Virus record (IMG/VR): IMGVR_UViG_3300032177_000052
Location: 1 to 30,471 of that record
Length of the DNA: 30,471 nt
Direction: 5' to 3' (one strand)
Source of the DNA: a virus
The notes under the pieces: model-generated
What the model was told of the DNA's origin: nothing
What the model saw: only the letters and a program-made list of their open reading frames with translations
The model's database searches: none
Shown here: piece after piece, positions 3,395 through 30,471 of the stretch
Numbering within the stretch: position 1 is the first letter of the stretch
Layout: each line of letters starts with the position of its first letter
Translations under genes and position numbers: made by a program

Positions 3395-4810
3395 GTGCTG
3401 ACAAAAGCCGAGCTGGACAAGCTCATCACGAACCAGAAGTCCCTTCAGTCGCGCGTCGAGGCCGCCGAGGCCAAGGCGAAGCTCGCTGAAGAAGAGAAGG
3501 CCGCGCTGCTCGCCACCCGTGGCGGCTCAGGCGGCGGCGGACACGGGATGGGCGGCAGCGACGAGATGCGGGCCTTGCGCTACTTCGGCAAGTCGCACCC
3601 TGCCGAGCTGCTCAACGTCAACGTAGCCGCGAAGCAGTTCAAGGGCGTGCCCGACGAGCTGAAGCACCTGGTGCTGAACTTCAAGCAGGCGATCGACATT
3701 GCCCGCTTCACCGCGCAGCTGTTCCACGGCGACCCGCTGGACTTCGTCTCCAAGGACGAGAAGTCCGACCGCCTCGGCAAGTGCGGGCGCATCCTGGAGA
3801 CGGACTACGGGAAGCACATCCTCGCCCCGGCCATCAAGGCGTTCGGCTCCACCGTCGTCGGCGCCGGCTCGGAGTGGGTGCCCACGGGCGTCTCCACGAC
3901 CTTCCTCGAGGAGTACGAACTCAAGCGCGTCCTCGAAGGTCGGTTCGACCTGGTGAACATGCCGACCAACCCGTTCGACCAGCCCAAGCTGAAGAACGTC
4001 ACCAAGGCTCGCAAGGCGACCGAGGGCCAGACGAACTTCACGGGCGCGAACTTCTCCACGGACAAGATCCGGTTCAGCGCGACGAAGCTCGAAGAGTTCT
4101 ACCCGCTGCCTGAAGAACTCACCGAGGACTCCGCCCCCGACTTCCTCGGCGCCGCTCGCGGCGAAGTGGTCAAGGCCCAGGAGCGAGCCGCCGAGTCGGC
4201 CATCATCAACGGTGACAGCGACGGCTCGCACCAGGACAGCGACACCCAGGCCGCAGGCGCCGACGTCTGCGAAAAGGTGTGGGACGGCCTCCGCAAGCTG
4301 GCCCTCGCCAACTCGGCGAACGGCTCTACCTATGACCTCGGCAACGCGGTCATCGACAAGCTCAAGCTGAGCACCCTGCTCAGCCGCATGGGCAAGTTCG
4401 GGTCGAACCCCGACGAGCTGATGATCGTGGCCGGACCGGTCATGTACAACCAGCTGCGGAACATCACCGAGGTGTTCACGGTCGAGAAGTTCGGCCCCAT
4501 GGCCGTGGTGCTCAAGGGCGCCCTCATGGCCTGGGCGGGCATCCCGATCGTCAACTCGGAGTTCTTCCGCGAGGACCTGAACGCCTCGGGCGTCTACGAC
4601 GGCACGACCGTCGACCGCACGGGCATCGTCATCGCCAACACCAAGCGGTTCTACGTCGGCCAGCGCCGCCCGATCCGGGTCAAGCTGATGCCCGACCTGC
4701 CGGGCAGCGACCGCTGGCTGCTCGCCTCTTACCGTCGCGTCGACTTCAAAGGCCACGTCCAGGGCGCGGTCGAGAAGTCGGTGGTCTACGGGTACAACGG
4801 GGCGAAGTAA
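3395..4810 (+). CDS. Major capsid protein, HK97 fold
   Basis: A 471-residue protein of typical length, with GTG start at 3395 and an AAGGGAG ribosome site just upstream. Residues ~1-42 form a charged coiled-coil (delta-domain-like), followed by a Gly-rich linker (RGGSGGGGHGMGG). The rest fits the HK97 capsid family: a segment with GSEWVPTGVSTTFLEEYEL, the FYPLPEELTEDSAPDF region resembling the spine helix approach, an ESAIINGDSDGSH loop seen in many of these capsids, and the C-terminal KRFYVGQRRPIRVKLM strand region. It would form the icosahedral shell. The delta domain is presumably cut off by the upstream protease. The gene stands alone between a 55-base gap and a terminator, which would allow separate high expression. 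Confidence 0.9.
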   Translation: MLTKAELDKLITNQKSLQSRVEAAEAKAKLAEEEKAALLATRGGSGGGGHGMGGSDEMRALRYFGKSHPAELLNVNVAAKQFKGVPDELKHLVLNFKQAIDIARFTAQLFHGDPLDFVSKDEKSDRLGKCGRILETDYGKHILAPAIKAFGSTVVGAGSEWVPTGVSTTFLEEYELKRVLEGRFDLVNMPTNPFDQPKLKNVTKARKATEGQTNFTGANFSTDKIRFSATKLEEFYPLPEELTEDSAPDFLGAARGEVVKAQERAAESAIINGDSDGSHQDSDTQAAGADVCEKVWDGLRKLALANSANGSTYDLGNAVIDKLKLSTLLSRMGKFGSNPDELMIVAGPVMYNQLRNITEVFTVEKFGPMAVVLKGALMAWAGIPIVNSEFFREDLNASGVYDGTTVDRTGIVIANTKRFYVGQRRPIRVKLMPDLPGSDRWLLASYRRVDFKGHVQGAVEKSVVYGYNGAK

Positions 4811-4831
4811 GACCAATCTTCTTCACATAAG

Positions 4832-4866
4832 CGGGAGGGGGGTGTAATACCCTCCCTCCCGTTTCT
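4832..4866 (+). terminator. Hairpin terminator after the capsid gene
   Basis: Bases 4832-4842 (CGGGAGGGGGG) pair with 4851-4861 (CCTCCCTCCCG) in an 11-bp stem with one G:U pair. The loop is 8 bases and a short T-rich run (TTTCT) follows. It lies 21 bases after the capsid stop codon and before the next ribosome site. The T tract is short, so termination may be partial. Confidence 0.7.
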
Positions 4867-4881
4867 CATAAGGGGCCAGGC

Positions 4882-5694
4882 GTGACCGACCAGCAGTTCA
4901 GGATCGGGCTGTACGACACGGCCAACGTCGTGCCGCCGATCAGCACACTGCCGGTGGGTGTGCACAGGTTCAGGATCACGACCGTTGGCAACTCGGTCCT
5001 GTCCACGGTCTACGTCAGGTCAGGCGCCGGCACGGCCTCCGTCCGGTGGTTCGACCTCGGCGCCGGACTGGAGCTGGCCGACACCCAGACGACACTCCTC
5101 ACCCACCCGACCATGACTGCCGGGCAGACCGACCGCCGCGTGGTGACGAAGATCCACGCCTCCTGCTTCGTCGAGGTCACGGTCGCCGGCGCTCCCGTAG
5201 ACATGGGGGTTCTGGCGACCGTCGTCGCGGACTTCCCGCTCTCGGGCAACATCCTCGACGCCCAGCTCGCCCACTTGGCGGCGGACGGAGGCCTGCCCGT
5301 CTCCGTCTACAACCCAGGCGACGGCAAGTTCTACCTGCTGCGCGGCGGCCCTGACGGCCTAGCCGTGTCGGAGAGGGTCGGGAGAGTGCTGGAGGCAGGC
5401 ACCACCTTGGCCTCCACCGGCCCCTCCACGACCATCCTGTCGATGGCCCCCGCGACCGGCGTCACCTGGCGCGTCAGGTACGGCGAGGTCGTGTGCCGTG
5501 GCGTAGGCCGCTGGAACCTCGTCGTAGACGGTGTGCGCGTGGGCGGCGGCGCAACGGGGCCAGAGAGGGCCCATGACCGCACAGACATGCCTGGGTACGT
5601 CCTGGCCCTGGCCTCCGTTCAGGTCGGGTATACTTACTCCCATGGTCCAGCGGGCATAGACATCGACGCCTTCGTCGGGGTCACGGAACTCTAA
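4882..5694 (+). CDS. Putative phage structural protein of unknown function
   Basis: A 270-residue protein with GTG start preceded by AAGGGG. I do not recognise a family with confidence. The N-terminal half (to ~110) reads as a small beta-rich domain (VHRFRITTVGNSVLSTVYVR, then FVEVTVAGAPVDMG). A middle segment, DGGLPVSVYNPGDGKFYLL followed by DGLAVSE, loosely resembles a motif common in phage decoration and tail proteins and in the next two genes. The C-terminal third is again beta-rich (WRVRYGEVVCRGVGRWNLVV). Position right after the capsid gene suggests a head decoration or other virion protein. No signal peptide or membrane segment is visible. Confidence 0.65.
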   Translation: MTDQQFRIGLYDTANVVPPISTLPVGVHRFRITTVGNSVLSTVYVRSGAGTASVRWFDLGAGLELADTQTTLLTHPTMTAGQTDRRVVTKIHASCFVEVTVAGAPVDMGVLATVVADFPLSGNILDAQLAHLAADGGLPVSVYNPGDGKFYLLRGGPDGLAVSERVGRVLEAGTTLASTGPSTTILSMAPATGVTWRVRYGEVVCRGVGRWNLVVDGVRVGGGATGPERAHDRTDMPGYVLALASVQVGYTYSHGPAGIDIDAFVGVTEL

Positions 5695-5762
5695 AGGTCA
5701 GGCAGTGCGCAGCCGACACCTTGGTCTCATGCTCAAGGCCACACCACTAAGGGAGTAAAGAC

Positions 5763-6314
5763 ATGACCGACCTTCGCACAAGCACCATGATACTCGAAGA
5801 CGCCACGACAGCCGCGGGCCTCCCGCTGCACAAGGTGCTCGAAGGTGACGCCTACGCGGCGAAGAACGCCCTGCCGGCGCTCGTCGCCAAGGACTCGACC
5901 GGCCTGCTCCTGAAGTACCTGAAGGTGGACGCCAACGGCGCCCTCCTCGTCAACACCGAGGTCGTCTCGACCTGCAAGAAGGCCAAGGGCGAACTGGCTG
6001 CCGGCTCGGGCACGCTCGCCCTCGTCACCGGCGCCTCGATCATCCTCACGGCGGACAAGTCCTACGAAGGCGTCGGCTTCGTCGTGTCCTGCCGTCGTGA
6101 CGCCCTGTTCCAGATCATCTGGTCGGACGACGTGACCGATAATGTCCTCGCCGAGATCGTCGTCGGCAGCGGCTCCTACACCGCCGTCGGCGAGCTGCAC
6201 TGCCTCAACTTCACCGCGGGCGCCACCGGCGTCCAGGCGCTCAAGCTCAAGGCCATGAACTTCGAGGCGCTGTCCAGCCTTCGCGGTTCGATCGTGGTGT
6301 CCGAAGTCGCGTAA
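5763..6314 (+). CDS. Putative capsid-associated protein, paralogue of the next gene
   Basis: A 183-residue protein, ATG start, with GGGAG 5 bases upstream of a GTAAAGAC word that abuts the start. Residues ~11-60 align without gaps to residues ~33-85 of the following protein, sharing ED-TT-AG, EGDA, VAK-ST and YL--D--G-L positions. The remainder is Ala/Gly/Val-rich and probably beta (GSGTLALVTGASIILTADKS, later GVQALKLKAMNFEALSSL). The composition and place fit a small virion surface or decoration protein, but no function is established from sequence. It is separated from the previous gene by 68 bases in which I see no other feature. Confidence 0.65.
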   Translation: MTDLRTSTMILEDATTAAGLPLHKVLEGDAYAAKNALPALVAKDSTGLLLKYLKVDANGALLVNTEVVSTCKKAKGELAAGSGTLALVTGASIILTADKSYEGVGFVVSCRRDALFQIIWSDDVTDNVLAEIVVGSGSYTAVGELHCLNFTAGATGVQALKLKAMNFEALSSLRGSIVVSEVA

Positions 6315-6322
6315 GGGGAGCT

Positions 6323-7309
6323 ATGCTGTCCAGCTCAAGGTGTCTTCTTCTTCTTCGCTTGCTGGGGTGGTCCGCTTGGGCCGCCCTGGCTCTATCCTTG
6401 CCCGCCGCCGCCGTGGACCTGAAGCCGTCGTTCCCGACGACCGAGGACTACACCACCGGCGCCGGGGTGGCGATGACCCGCACCGTCGAAGGTGACGCGG
6501 CTGCCGGCAGGAACTCAATCGCGACCTTCGTCGCCAAGAAGTCCACGGACAGCACACTGGTCTACCTCCAGGCCGACTCGCAAGGCCGTCTGATTACCGT
6601 CGGCATAACCGGCTTCGGCGCGGACTTCAGCTTCGGCGACGTGACGACCTCGGGCACCACGGTCGTAGCGGTCAACCGCACCGCCTACACTGAGCCAGCG
6701 TCCGTCGCCGCCTTCTCCATCAAGTCAGCCAGCGCAGCCGACGCGGCCGCAGGCACCGGGGCGAGGACCGTACTCGTCACCTACTACGACAACACCGCGG
6801 CGGCCCTGGACTCCGAGACGGTGACGTTGAACGGGACGACCTGCGTCAACTCCGTCACGACCCTGGCCCGCTTCTTTGAAAAGGCCTCGGTCGTCACCGC
6901 AGGCAGCGGCCTAGCCAACGCCGGCCTGCTGACCCTGTACACCGGCACCGGCTGCTCGACCGTCGCCGGCACCATAGCCGTAGGCGACAACCAGACCTTC
7001 TGGGCTCACCACTACGTCGCCGCCGCCAAGACAGCCAACATCACCGGCATTTCGGTCAACCACAACGGCACGACGGTCGGCTCAGGCGCCGTCTTCGTCA
7101 TCAAGAGCAAGCCGATAGGCGTCACCAACGCCGTCGAAACCCAGTCCGGCGACTTCCACCGCCTCTACGGTCAGTCGAGCACCAGCGCCAGGGTCTACGC
7201 GTCGCCCATCAAGGTCGTCGGCCCGGCGCGGGTCCAGGTCTACGCCGCGCCCGAGAACTCCGGCACAACGACCGTCTACCGCGCCTCCATCGACTTCTTC
7301 GAGCCCTAG
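6323..7309 (+). CDS. Exported-looking paralogue of the preceding protein, function unknown
   Basis: A 328-residue protein starting at ATG 6323 with GGGGAG only 2 bases upstream, a tight spacing. The first ~32 residues look like a Sec signal peptide: Arg near the start (SSSR), a Leu/Ala-rich core (CLLLLRLLGWSAWAALALSL) and a PAAA/V cleavage-type site. The next ~50 residues are paralogous to the protein before it. The remaining ~240 residues are Thr/Ala/Ser/Gly-rich and beta-like, with Cys at NGTTCVNSV and TGTGCSTV. A later in-frame GTG (6413) would remove the signal peptide but has no ribosome site. A signal peptide on a protein in a head gene cluster is odd, as virion assembly is cytoplasmic. 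Confidence 0.62.
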   Translation: MLSSSRCLLLLRLLGWSAWAALALSLPAAAVDLKPSFPTTEDYTTGAGVAMTRTVEGDAAAGRNSIATFVAKKSTDSTLVYLQADSQGRLITVGITGFGADFSFGDVTTSGTTVVAVNRTAYTEPASVAAFSIKSASAADAAAGTGARTVLVTYYDNTAAALDSETVTLNGTTCVNSVTTLARFFEKASVVTAGSGLANAGLLTLYTGTGCSTVAGTIAVGDNQTFWAHHYVAAAKTANITGISVNHNGTTVGSGAVFVIKSKPIGVTNAVETQSGDFHRLYGQSSTSARVYASPIKVVGPARVQVYAAPENSGTTTVYRASIDFFEP

Positions 7310-7319
7310 GGAGACACCC

Positions 7320-7763
7320 GTGACCATCAACGTCGATCCAGCCAGCGGCAGGGAGATCCTGCTCTTCGACGCCTTCTCCTACAACGGCCAGTACAACGTC
7401 AAGGCAACCGGCTACTCCGGGTCTGCTGCTGCCGGCGTCACCTCCAACGTCGACTTCGCCATCGGCGCGGAGGACCGGTACATCAATGGCGTCCACCTCT
7501 TCCTGAAGGGTCACGCCTGGGGCGACACCATGTCCTTCCAGGTGGTGGACAAGAACGGAGTCTACGCCCCGGCCGGCACCGTGCTCAACCAGTTCGGCTT
7601 CACCTGGAACGTCAACGACCAGGTGCAGGACCAGGGACAGAACGCCTTCGCCTACGTCGCCAAGATCCCGACCGGCGTCTACATCCGCATCGTCTACGTC
7701 TCGGTCGGCGGCACCGCAGTCGACGTGAAGCTCAACTGTCTGATGCACAAGAATGTCGCATGA
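7320..7763 (+). CDS. Small putative structural protein, unknown
   Basis: A 147-residue protein with GTG start and GGGAG 8 bases upstream. It looks like a single beta-sandwich domain: FDAFSYNGQYNVKATGY, then HLFLKGHAWGDTMSFQVVD, then IRIVYVSVGGTAVDVKLN. No Cys pairs, signal peptide or membrane segment. Its stop overlaps the next start (ATGA), so it is translationally coupled to the cysteine hydrolase that follows. The place between capsid and connector genes suggests a head-surface protein. I do not recognise the family. Confidence 0.6.
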   Translation: MTINVDPASGREILLFDAFSYNGQYNVKATGYSGSAAAGVTSNVDFAIGAEDRYINGVHLFLKGHAWGDTMSFQVVDKNGVYAPAGTVLNQFGFTWNVNDQVQDQGQNAFAYVAKIPTGVYIRIVYVSVGGTAVDVKLNCLMHKNVA

Positions 7764-8236
7764 GGGTCCTCTTCACCCGCTCCGGGAACATCGCCAGCCG
7801 CATGATCCGGTGGGTCACGAAGGAGCCCGTCTCCCACTGCGCCCTCCAGGTCGGCGGGTACGTCGTGCACTCGAACTTCCTCGGCGTCCACGCCCAGACC
7901 GTCGACTCGTTCGAAGGGGCCTGCACGGTGTACGCCTCCATCACCTACCCCGACAACTACCCGCGCATCTTCGACCAGCTATGCGCCCACGGCGGCGCCT
8001 GGTACGACTTCGGAGCCATGCTCTACATCGCAGCTCGAGCGATCTGCCCGTGGCTGCCCAAGAAGAACCTGTGGCGGTGCTCCGGGATGTTCCTGTGCAC
8101 GGAGTGGGTCACCGACTTCCTGGGCGAGACAGACTCAATGATTACGCCATGGCAGCTCTTCCTGAAGCTCGGAGGGGTGCCACCTGGCGCCGTCCAAGCT
8201 GGCGCGACGACCTGGAGTTCTGGTACAAAGGTATAG
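7760..8236 (+). CDS. Permuted NlpC/P60 (papain-like) cysteine hydrolase, putative
   Basis: A 158-residue protein. Residues ~1-45 read RVLFTRSGNIASRMIRWVTK then PVSHCALQVGGYVVHS. Residues ~75-125 contain GAWYDFGAMLYIAARA and GMFLCTEWVTDFLG. The order His (in SHCAL) first and Cys (in FLCTEW) later is the one seen in circularly permuted NlpC/P60 proteins of the YiiX/YaeF type, where an SHv-i motif precedes an f-Cse-v motif. Such enzymes cleave amide, ester or peptide bonds. No signal peptide is present. It overlaps the preceding gene by 4 bases. In phages such genes occur among structural genes, but the substrate here is unknown. The fold call is motif-based and needs a profile comparison. Confidence 0.6.
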   Translation: MRVLFTRSGNIASRMIRWVTKEPVSHCALQVGGYVVHSNFLGVHAQTVDSFEGACTVYASITYPDNYPRIFDQLCAHGGAWYDFGAMLYIAARAICPWLPKKNLWRCSGMFLCTEWVTDFLGETDSMITPWQLFLKLGGVPPGAVQAGATTWSSGTKV

Positions 8237-28602: not shown

Positions 28603-28610
28603 TGCCCTTG

Positions 28611-28644
28611 CGTCTTTACCTTTGGTCGTAGTAACGTCTTTACC
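28611..28644 (+). repeat. Two 10-base direct repeats before the ribbon-helix-helix gene (possible operator)
   Basis: CGTCTTTACC occurs at 28611-28620 and 28635-28644, with starts 24 bases apart. The second copy ends 1 base before the ATG at 28646. The gene lacks a visible Shine-Dalgarno site here. The spacing (about two helical turns) and the DNA-binding protein that follows suggest an operator for self-control. The reverse complement (GGTAAAGACG) also occurs at 3250-3259 and 11493-11502. Confidence 0.45.
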
Positions 28645-28645
28645 A

Positions 28646-28867
28646 ATGACTGAGCACAAGCGGACGCGCCTCATCAATTTCAAGGTCAACTCGGACGAGT
28701 ACGACCGCATCGAGAACCTGGCCCGTGAGCACGCTGGCGGGAACATCTCCGTCTGGCTCCGTCGTCGGGGGATGACCAAGTCGTCCTTCCCATCGAACTT
28801 CGTCCTCGTGGACGACACGGAGACGCATGGTGACGACGAGCAGGATTCCGCCGACGGCCACTCGTGA
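28646..28867 (+). CDS. Ribbon-helix-helix-like DNA-binding protein, putative regulator
   Basis: A 73-residue protein starting at ATG 28646 (an earlier TTG at 28622 is possible). RTRLINFKVNSDEYDRIENL followed by AREHAGGNISVWLRRRGM fits the ribbon-helix-helix fold of Arc/CopG/MobC-type proteins: a short beta strand with alternating residues, a helix, then a 'G-NIS-WLRR-' turn and second helix. The C-terminal ~30 residues are acidic and probably disordered. These proteins bind DNA as dimers at repeated short sites, and paired repeats lie just upstream. No Shine-Dalgarno is visible, so the start could be leaderless. It is coupled to the next gene by a GTGA overlap. Confidence 0.58.
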   Translation: MTEHKRTRLINFKVNSDEYDRIENLAREHAGGNISVWLRRRGMTKSSFPSNFVLVDDTETHGDDEQDSADGHS

Positions 28868-29265
28868 CGACAACGCGAGACATTGAGCGCAAGCAGGGCA
28901 TCGACCCGTCCAAGAACCCGAACGCCTTCCTCCAGACGCTGGGCGAGAACTTCCCCTACGAGGACACGACCCACGAAAAGGTGTACGACCTGCCAGAGGT
29001 CAAGGGGTGCGTGACGCCCGACGGCTACGTGTCCATCCATTGGGACGGCGACGTTGTTCCGTGCTGTAAGTGCTTTGGCAAGCAGCACGTCTTCGGCAAC
29101 CTGTTCGACTCGACCATGGACCAGATCGTGGATGGGCGAGCGCGGCGGGAGTTCCTGGCGAAGATGCCCACGGGCAAGAACTACATCTGCCGCTTCTGCC
29201 AGGTGCCGAACCCGCACCAGATCCACGAGAAGCTGGTCGCGTGGAAGGAGGCGCAGGCAACGTGA
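28864..29265 (+). CDS. Stand-alone SPASM-like iron-sulfur domain protein
   Basis: A 133-residue protein (GTG start overlapping the previous stop). Residues ~47-115 read as the C-terminal SPASM domain of radical SAM proteins: GCVTPDGYVSIHWDGDVVPC, then CFGKQHVFGNLF, DSTMDQIVDGRARREFL and YICRFCQVPNP. Cys49, 67, 68, 70, 109 and 112 are present, enough for one 4Fe-4S cluster. The second-cluster Cys after 112 are absent. There is no radical SAM CxxxCxxC motif and no room for the barrel. SPASM domains normally bind auxiliary clusters and position peptide or sugar substrates. Here it stands between a DNA-binding protein and a glycosyltransferase, all coupled. The fold call is good; the role is unknown. 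Confidence 0.75.
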   Translation: MTTTRDIERKQGIDPSKNPNAFLQTLGENFPYEDTTHEKVYDLPEVKGCVTPDGYVSIHWDGDVVPCCKCFGKQHVFGNLFDSTMDQIVDGRARREFLAKMPTGKNYICRFCQVPNPHQIHEKLVAWKEAQAT

Positions 29266-30221
29266 CGCTCCTGTTCCTACCCATCGAGAGGTACGACTCG
29301 CGCTACTCGGCCCAGTGGTACCACTGGTTCATGAAGGAGCTGTCTGGGAAGGACGTGGTGGTCGTCGGCGACACGGAGCTGCGCGAGATCAAGACCGGCC
29401 AGTTCCTCGACGCCTTCGAGACGATGCGGTACAAGGCCGACCAGACGAAGGCCGTGGTCGAATGGCTGCGCGACAACCCGGAGACACCGTGCACCATCTT
29501 CTGCATGGACCTGTGGCACCCTGGGATCGTGTCGATGGCCTACGCGGCGAAGGTGGGCAACAGGGAGGCGACCATCACGGGCATCCTCCACGCGGGCACC
29601 TGGGACGAGTACGACCACCTGACGGCGGTCGGACTGCGCGACGAGCTGGCCGGCTTCGAGGACTCCATCTTCAACATCGCCCGGCGCATCTACGTGGGCA
29701 CGCACTTCCACGCCGAACTGTTGCGGGCGGACAACTGCCGCAGCAAGATCCAGGTCGTCGACTTCCCCGTGATCGAGCCCATCATGGGCGTGCCGTTCGC
29801 CAACCGCGAGCGCCTGGTCGTCTGGCCGCACCGCAAGGCGCCGGAGAAGCAGCCGGAGGTGTGGGACGAGATCGTCGCGCTCTACCGCCAGGCGTACCCC
29901 GAGGACCGGGCCCGCTTCGTCACGACCGTGGACGAATGCTCAACCAAGACGGACTATTACGACTTGCTCGCTCGAGCTAGGGTCGTCGTCTCGACGGCGC
30001 TCCAGGAGACGTTCGGCATTGCCATGCTCGAGGGCCTGAACAGTGGCGCCTGGCCGGTGGTGCCCGACAGCCTCTCCTACCGGGAGCTCTACTCGCGGGC
30101 ATCCCGCTACCTCGACGTGGCTCGCGTCCCGGCGATGATCCACGCGCGGCTCAACCGGGCGTACGGCCCGACCATCGACTCGCAGTACGTTCCCGACCTC
30201 TCATGGATAGGAGCGCTGTGA
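29262..30221 (+). CDS. GT-B glycosyltransferase, GT4-like
   Basis: I start at GTG 29262, which overlaps the previous stop, giving 319 residues. An earlier in-frame ATG at 29070 would read through the SPASM gene. MTLLFLPIERYDSRY is a Rossmann-type opening. The middle has ILHAGTWDEYDHLT and RIYVGTHFHAELL, typical acceptor-domain features of GT-B enzymes. The C-terminal half has RLVVWPHRKAPEKQPEVW and the hallmark STALQETFGIAMLEGLNSG, containing the E-x7-E motif of GT4-type retaining transferases that binds the sugar nucleotide. It would move a sugar from a nucleotide donor to an unknown acceptor (DNA base, protein or surface glycan). It is followed by an overlapping gene. Confidence 0.85.
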   Translation: MTLLFLPIERYDSRYSAQWYHWFMKELSGKDVVVVGDTELREIKTGQFLDAFETMRYKADQTKAVVEWLRDNPETPCTIFCMDLWHPGIVSMAYAAKVGNREATITGILHAGTWDEYDHLTAVGLRDELAGFEDSIFNIARRIYVGTHFHAELLRADNCRSKIQVVDFPVIEPIMGVPFANRERLVVWPHRKAPEKQPEVWDEIVALYRQAYPEDRARFVTTVDECSTKTDYYDLLARARVVVSTALQETFGIAMLEGLNSGAWPVVPDSLSYRELYSRASRYLDVARVPAMIHARLNRAYGPTIDSQYVPDLSWIGAL

Positions 30222-30471
30222 AGCTCTACTTCGCGGGCATGGACCAAGCCATGTCGTCCTACAAGTACATGCCGCTGAAGACCGACAACGTCTTCGGCAC
30301 GTTCTTCTACGCGTCGACCAGCAGCCGCATGCTTCAGATGCTGGACAAGGCTGGGCACACGGGCATCAGGACGATCGACTCCGGCGCTCACTCGTTCTTC
30401 GGCTGCGCCGGGATCTCCACCCAGTCGCACCACAACAGCAAGAAGGACAAGGGCGTGCTGATGCCCGAGCC
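30218..30471 (+). CDS. N-terminus of a DSGA-motif protein, possibly transglycosylase (TGT/DpdA)-like; 3' partial
   Basis: GTG at 30218 overlaps the previous stop (GTGA). The frame runs off the right edge after 84 codons. It begins VKLYFAGMDQAMSSYKYMPL and has IRTIDSGAHSFFGCAG. An opening 'MK-Y-AG' strand followed by an 'IDSGA-S' motif is a pattern I associate with phage TIM-barrel proteins related to tRNA-guanine transglycosylase and DpdA, where the Asp starts a barrel strand. Only 84 residues are visible and the later catalytic residues lie outside the window. The identification is tentative. Confidence 0.42.
   Translation, partial: MKLYFAGMDQAMSSYKYMPLKTDNVFGTFFYASTSSRMLQMLDKAGHTGIRTIDSGAHSFFGCAGISTQSHHNSKKDKGVLMPE

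Follow-up and report, generated by a model that had tools for sequence, protein, structure and literature searches.

The right end of the IMG/VR virus record IMGVR_UViG_3300032177_000052 raises the question of what a phage could make with four tightly coupled genes for a small DNA-binding protein, an iron-sulfur SPASM domain, a glycosyltransferase (GT) and a protein with a DSGA motif. The record was analyzed over its whole length (30,471 bases, hereafter the window), and its end falls inside the fourth gene (gene 4). An earlier note, made from the letters of the window, had read the run as a possible modification module that puts a base analogue or a sugar on phage DNA or on a virion protein. 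The module reading was borne out by the relatives of the GT gene, which almost always cluster with DpdA, FolE, QueE and a QueD-like protein, while the virion-protein alternative gained no support. Judging by this gene content, we consider it fairly probable that the DNA of this phage carries a glycosylated 7-deazaguanine, installed by means of a cluster that lacks QueC and has a dedicated GT4-type glycosyltransferase, the sugar on the base being the presumed final product.

Identity of the transglycosylase and the glycosyltransferase

The run consists of four open reading frames (ORFs) on the plus strand, the last one reaching from 30218 to the end of the record. Each successive pair shares four nucleotides (GTGA at 28864–28867, 29262–29265 and 30218–30221), as the earlier note had described, and the codon-position GC is of the coding type in all four. 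The domain readings proposed for the first three genes also held, with the matches given here:

28646..28867, plus strand: RHH (NikA/CopG-like) small DNA-binding protein, 73 amino acids (PF21983, E = 2.9e-6)
28864..29265, plus strand: lone SPASM iron-sulfur domain protein, 133 amino acids (PF13186, 5.1e-12)
29262..30221, plus strand: GT4-type (GT-B fold) glycosyltransferase, 319 amino acids (PF00534, 5.1e-4; AlphaFold2 model)
30218..30471, plus strand: 5' part of a DpdA (DNA-guanine transglycosylase) gene (51% identity to P0005)
30377..30391, plus strand: DSGAH codons, with the first of the family's two conserved aspartates (26-sequence alignment A5)

Gene 4 may alternatively start at the ATG at 30203, in which case the overlap with the GT gene would be 19 nucleotides, similar to that in the related contigs L004 and L006 (loci related to the run carry L numbers throughout). 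As a short and divergent query, the gene 4 fragment alone had no match among viral contigs and phage records, and it was identified via L004, a contig itself reached through the GT gene. The gene order in L004 is FolE, phrog_17812, kinase, radical SAM/SPASM, GT and P0005 (290 amino acids), with QueD and QueE upstream. P0005 is 51% identical to the window fragment across the 84 amino acids present and matches phrog_887 ('queuine tRNA-ribosyltransferase') with 9.5e-29, while the A5 profile, built from 26 relatives of P0005, matches the DpdA gene of Escherichia phage CAjan (4.3e-13) and gp3 of Mycobacterium phage Bipper (2.8e-21). The suspected TGT/DpdA-like nature of the last gene was thus confirmed, and in terms of sequence family gene 4 is a CAjan-type DpdA (phrog_887). 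An assignment to 'DpdA2' was dropped, as the A5 profile did not match the DpdA2 phage nt-1, whereas CAjan and Bipper were both matched. Deletion of dpdA in CAjan deprives its DNA of the 7-deazaguanine modification and of restriction-enzyme resistance (PMC6884629).

The DSGAH motif occupies codons 54–58 of gene 4; in A5 its D, S, G and A are invariant and the H is kept in at least 90% of the sequences. Two aspartates, D55 of the DSG motif and D208 of a VDS motif, are invariant in the 26 relatives, and the window retains the first (codon 30377–30379), the position of the second lying past the record end. An AlphaFold2 model of a gene 4 relative was barrel-like (predicted local distance difference test, pLDDT, 91.2). 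Sequence searches of Pfam and PDB did not recognize this DpdA family.

The match of the window GT to PF00534 (GT group 1) misses the Pfam cut-off; the same family was matched by 31 of 33 GT family members at E-values up to 1. The AlphaFold2 model of the window GT (pLDDT 91.5) has a GT-B fold, and its nearest PDB structures are BshA (4e-10), SenB, MshA and further GT4 enzymes, with 11–14% identity in the structural alignments. Neither the alpha- nor the beta-GT of T4 was among its best 50 PDB matches. The GT4 active-site residues (RxxxxK, EX7E) are kept across 131 distinct sequences (R191 99%, K196 99%, E249 92%, E257 98%). By alignment search, the family has at least 597 confirmed matches in IMG/VR, compared with a single contig in the GTDB representative genomes, and it appears nearly confined to viruses.

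Gene company of the glycosyltransferase family

Loci were retrieved with the GT alone, and their neighboring genes were annotated with profiles built for this analysis. Among 98 non-redundant loci obtained in this way, a DpdA-type gene was present in 89 and phrog_17812 in 93; in those of at least 18 kb, DpdA, phrog_17812 and FolE were each found in 32 of 32, QueE in 30 and QueD in 19. Retrieval from the DpdA side gave 38 loci with both GT and phrog_17812, four with the GT only, one with phrog_17812 only and 32 with neither (Fisher p = 1e-15 for the association of the two genes, a nominal value since the loci are related). The same cluster is present in the isolates Acidovorax phage ACP17, Pseudomonas phage PAC2 (PA5oct group), Sinorhizobium phage Phosso and Xanthomonas phage X1; in Phosso, DpdA is located at another genome position, away from the cluster. 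On sequence grounds, the membership of the run in a DpdA/deazaguanine cluster is strongly supported. The earlier note held that the run may extend past the right edge, and this agrees with a record ending inside gene 4 and with L004, where the run continues with the full cluster; extended relatives such as L004 offer a good TGT-like fit of the last gene and related genes around it, the reverse of what the note had named as evidence against its proposal.

Two types of DpdA accompany the GT: the CAjan type, to which that of the window belongs, and a second type with a TGT-like DSGG motif. The latter ('DpdA3-like', TGT/DpdA3-like) comprises two subgroups, including ACP17 and PAC2-like members, which match one another with 100% probability, and its ACP17 member matches TIGR00449 (4.6e-7). 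Because it pairs with both types, the GT seems to follow the base chemistry and not one particular DpdA, and a role as spare subunit of one DpdA was judged less likely for the same reason. As a separate observation, approximately 28 loci within L147–L187 carry a DpdA of the CAjan type in whose vicinity there is no GT, no phrog_17812 and no gene for deazaguanine synthesis; a DpdA of this kind would need a host-made base or have another role.

The protein phrog_17812 is small and QueD-like (hhalign to QueD 96.9%), with H15, H31 and H33 invariant at the positions expected of the QueD zinc site. QueC was present in all four DpdA clusters that have FolE/QueD/QueE but neither GT nor phrog_17812 (L152, L161, L162 and L180) and in none of 14 GT-bearing records; its cut-off was exceeded in two of 40 GT records, weakly and outside the cluster. 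QueF was clear solely in L180, a QueC cluster. QueF matches in GT clusters were weak, and that of L004 falls on the FolE coordinates, hence they were rejected. Since the GT clusters are without QueC while the non-GT clusters have it, the former appear to branch from 7-carboxy-7-deazaguanine (CDG) rather than from preQ0. Of 37 well-flanked loci, 11 have phrog_17812 but no GT, and the reverse is almost never seen, which suggests that phrog_17812 acts upstream and that the GT is an add-on. Five loci (L217, L218, L253, L263 and L273) combine phrog_17812 with FolE/QueD/QueE, and mostly with DpdA too, without a GT; these phages probably carry an unglycosylated version of the base.

A consistent sugar-nucleotide gene adjoining the GT was not found across the relatives. 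PIG-L (GlcNAc-deacetylase) genes are located inside clusters L038 and L150, where additional glycosyltransferase-like ORFs could also be read from the translations, and a PIG-L gene adjoins a GT-like gene in Xanthomonas phage PhiXhv-12, in which a GlmS-like gene and a DpdA3-like ORF are also present. In the pathways of BshA and MshA, PIG-L deacetylases are the class of enzyme that acts next. Their presence beside the GT in three clusters supports real sugar chemistry there and points, circumstantially, to N-acetylglucosamine (GlcNAc) or glucosamine (GlcN) as the sugar in at least some clusters.

Three further observations concern this sugar-related gene content. In PhiXhv-12 (L195), a GlmS-like gene, a PIG-L/BshB-like deacetylase and a distant GT relative stand in series at 4738–7972, in a genome with the DpdA3-like ORF and no radical SAM gene; it possibly encodes an amino-sugar DNA modification that draws on host-made deazaguanine. 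The most elaborate version of the cluster encountered was the compact one of L038 (7092–12304), with phrog_17812, radical SAM/SPASM, an unknown protein of 156 amino acids, PIG-L, a glycosyltransferase-like ORF, GT4, DpdA3 and DNA polymerase. Two to three copies of the GT family per cluster were present in L016, L017 and L091, which suggests more than one sugar.

The lone SPASM gene and the surroundings of the run

The SPASM protein was described in the earlier note as lacking its radical SAM partner. This is correct for the window, in which a scan of all 30,471 bases gave no radical SAM domain or CxxxCxxC motif and no remnant of a radical SAM half upstream of the SPASM gene, but the protein is not of a stand-alone type. 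From its first residue it aligns to residues 103–235 of the 238-amino-acid radical SAM/SPASM protein at L004:2696-3412 (53% identity), with a common cysteine pattern and intact cysteine ligands; by this homology it is a radical SAM/SPASM enzyme reduced to its C-terminal half. Full-length versions (with CxxxCxxC) lie directly 5' of the GT in L004, L106, L133, L135, L143, L155, L156, L175 and L188, overlap the GT in L150 and are found nearby in L015, L027 and L038; the order radical SAM/SPASM, GT, DpdA is conserved in L004, L133, L135, L143, L155, L156 and L175. The gene is a recurrent yet optional member of the cluster.

The point of truncation is at the same place as the GTG start, where the gene overlaps the RHH stop. 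Because of this, and because both the coding signal (codon-position GC 0.57/0.39/0.90, compared with 0.62/0.42/0.93 for the GT and 0.58/0.38/0.89 for the tape-measure gene) and the cysteines are intact, the gene looks like one that is maintained in a SPASM-only form rather than freshly decaying. Alternatively, the radical SAM half may have been split off and be located beyond the record edge. SPASM-type sugar dehydrogenases exist, and by analogy tailoring of the sugar may be the task of the full-length enzymes. Outside the deazaguanine clusters, an annotated SPASM domain protein of about 191 amino acids was seen in Synechococcus phage S-SCSM2R (L194, 6088–6663).

The RHH gene, which the earlier note had listed in the coupled operon, was not found in the clusters of the relatives; it probably has a regulatory role or is a mere passenger. 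The 43-nucleotide gap in front of it (28603–28645) contains two exact copies of the 10-nucleotide direct repeat CGTCTTTACC, 24 nucleotides apart:

28611..28620, plus strand: direct repeat CGTCTTTACC, copy 1, candidate operator half
28635..28644, plus strand: direct repeat CGTCTTTACC, copy 2, just ahead of the RHH start codon, with the same putative function

The pair is a plausible, putative operator. With up to one mismatch, CGTCTTTACC has nine matches in the window (1.04 expected), mostly on the minus strand, and two of these lie just upstream of or at the gene starts 9664 and 11518.

The window further contains the structural region of a tailed phage (portal/head morphogenesis, head protease, major head protein and tape measure), followed by an amidase and a DUF968/HNH-like gene before the run. 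A single further adjacent pair (18734/18731) in the working list of 33 genes has a 4-nucleotide overlap.

Proposed pathway, rival explanations and known systems

From the gene identities, family memberships, co-occurrence and QueC exclusion obtained here, we infer an order of steps, an acceptor atom, a sugar and the activities involved, as follows. FolE, QueD and QueE would convert GTP to CDG, and phrog_17812 would turn CDG into the base that is used, perhaps through decarboxylation to 7-deazaguanine. DpdA would then swap guanine in DNA for this base, and the GT4-type enzyme would add a sugar (probably GlcNAc in some clusters) to the 7-deazaguanine; the likeliest substrate is the base already in DNA, though it could also be glycosylated prior to its insertion. 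The candidate acceptors are the C7 carbon or, should phrog_17812 not be a decarboxylase, the carboxylate of CDG. The product may then be tailored, in some phages, by a radical SAM/SPASM enzyme, a PIG-L deacetylase and additional glycosyltransferases, while in the phage of the window the radical SAM enzyme would be reduced to its SPASM half, still read from the overlapping start codon. The expected gain is protection of the phage DNA from host nucleases. For the broader proposal, that hundreds of phages have, in place of guanine in their DNA, a 7-deazaguanine that carries a sugar (in some of them an amino sugar) and is made via the QueC-less CDG branch, we see the chances as evenly balanced.

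Several results weigh against a glycosylated base in DNA. FolE, QueD, QueE and phrog_17812 are all missing from the 30,471-base window; they are assumed to sit past base 30471 or to be supplied by the host, and a search for contigs identical to the right end of the window, from which the sequence beyond could have been read, found none. In a Foldseek search with the model of the DpdA relative, generic TIM barrels ranked first (best E about 1.6e-3, none below 0.001), and TGT was not among its best 50 PDB matches. The GT family belongs to the generic GT4 superfamily, whose members have many different acceptors, and a decarboxylated, plain 7-deazaguanine offers no obvious oxygen for a sugar.

Other explanations were weighed as well. 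In one of them, DpdA uses the GT-like protein, its catalysis lost or altered, as a partner for DNA binding or assembly, so that the base stays unglycosylated. GT-B proteins can bind DNA (e.g., the T4 glucosyltransferases), some transglycosylases require a second subunit, and GT and DpdA lie within 100 nucleotides of each other, often overlapping, in 62 of 132 loci. We nevertheless regard such a role as unlikely, as the active-site residues are kept in 92–99% of the 131 distinct sequences, the GT tracks phrog_17812 while pairing with two DpdA types, the same DpdA type occurs without a GT in the four QueC clusters (L152, L161, L162 and L180), and PIG-L deacetylases and extra glycosyltransferase-like genes share the clusters. 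It is a shade less probable again that the substrate of the GT is not DNA but the free base derived from CDG, glycosylated ahead of its insertion by DpdA; the best structural neighbors, BshA, SenB and MshA, are small-molecule enzymes, which fits such a substrate, but the DpdA pocket would have to accommodate a sugar-bearing base, and the precedents for sugars in phage DNA (T4) act on DNA.

An action of the cluster on tRNA, with a queuosine-like and perhaps glycosylated product, could be imagined since DpdA is related to TGT and animal tRNA contains sugar-bearing queuosines (PMC12518689). We hold it to be improbable: the gene 4 family matches the DpdA of CAjan, whose substrate is phage DNA (PMC6884629), none of the 33 GT members matched the N-terminal Pfam family of the queuosine mannosyltransferase, and DNA polymerase, primase or clamp genes often adjoin the clusters. 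Phages also hold many glycosyltransferase genes for surface glycans, as reported in a survey of jumbo phages (PMC7824862), and the genes could thus serve cell-surface or virion glycosylation and have come together by chance; given the near-constant linkage with DpdA, FolE, QueE and phrog_17812 in the GT-, DpdA- and phrog_17812-side searches, this explanation is already disfavored and very improbable. A DNA base that is exchanged by DpdA and glycosylated by the GT is the reading that we prefer.

The cluster is widespread and little described among phages. Sugar-coated phage DNA is known mainly on modified pyrimidines, and a glycosylated 7-deazaguanine would, if true, be a hypermodified purine of a new class and account for GT and phrog_17812, a largely unannotated gene pair in hundreds of phages. 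As far as could be checked, such a DNA purine is so far unreported; in the literature searched, which did not cover Cui et al. 2023, DpdA was not linked to a glycosyltransferase together with radical SAM. The cluster occurs in isolated phages (ACP17, PA5oct relatives, Phosso and X1), so the question is directly testable.

Among known systems, the phage preQ0/dG+ systems (Escherichia phage CAjan, Mycobacterium phage Rosebush and phage 9g; PMC6884629) have FolE, QueD and QueE in common with the clusters of the relatives and the same DpdA family as gene 4, with guanine replacement in DNA as the expected function. The GT clusters differ from them by the lack of QueC or QueF, instead of which they have phrog_17812, the GT4 glycosyltransferase and sometimes radical SAM/SPASM. 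Cui et al. in 2023 reportedly introduced the names DpdL, for a CDG decarboxylase, and DpdA3, for a subfamily, and are said to have described QueC-less phages (dDG/dCDG); we presume that phrog_17812 is DpdL and that the transglycosylases of the ACP17/PA5oct type are DpdA3. The T4 alpha- and beta-glucosyltransferases, which produce glucosylated 5-hydroxymethylcytosine, are likewise GT-B enzymes that put sugar on a modified phage DNA base, but they belong to another GT family and their acceptor is derived from cytosine, whereas here it would be derived from guanine. The queuosine mannosyl- and galactosyltransferases of animal tRNA also place a sugar on a 7-deazaguanine nucleoside of a nucleic acid; they target the cyclopentene ring hydroxyls in tRNA and have an N-terminal Pfam family that the GT members did not match. 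Finally, the bacillithiol pair of BshA (GT4) and BshB (PIG-L deacetylase) resembles the clusters both in the GT4 fold and in the PIG-L neighbor present in three of them, with malate as the acceptor in bacillithiol synthesis and presumably a deazaguanine here.

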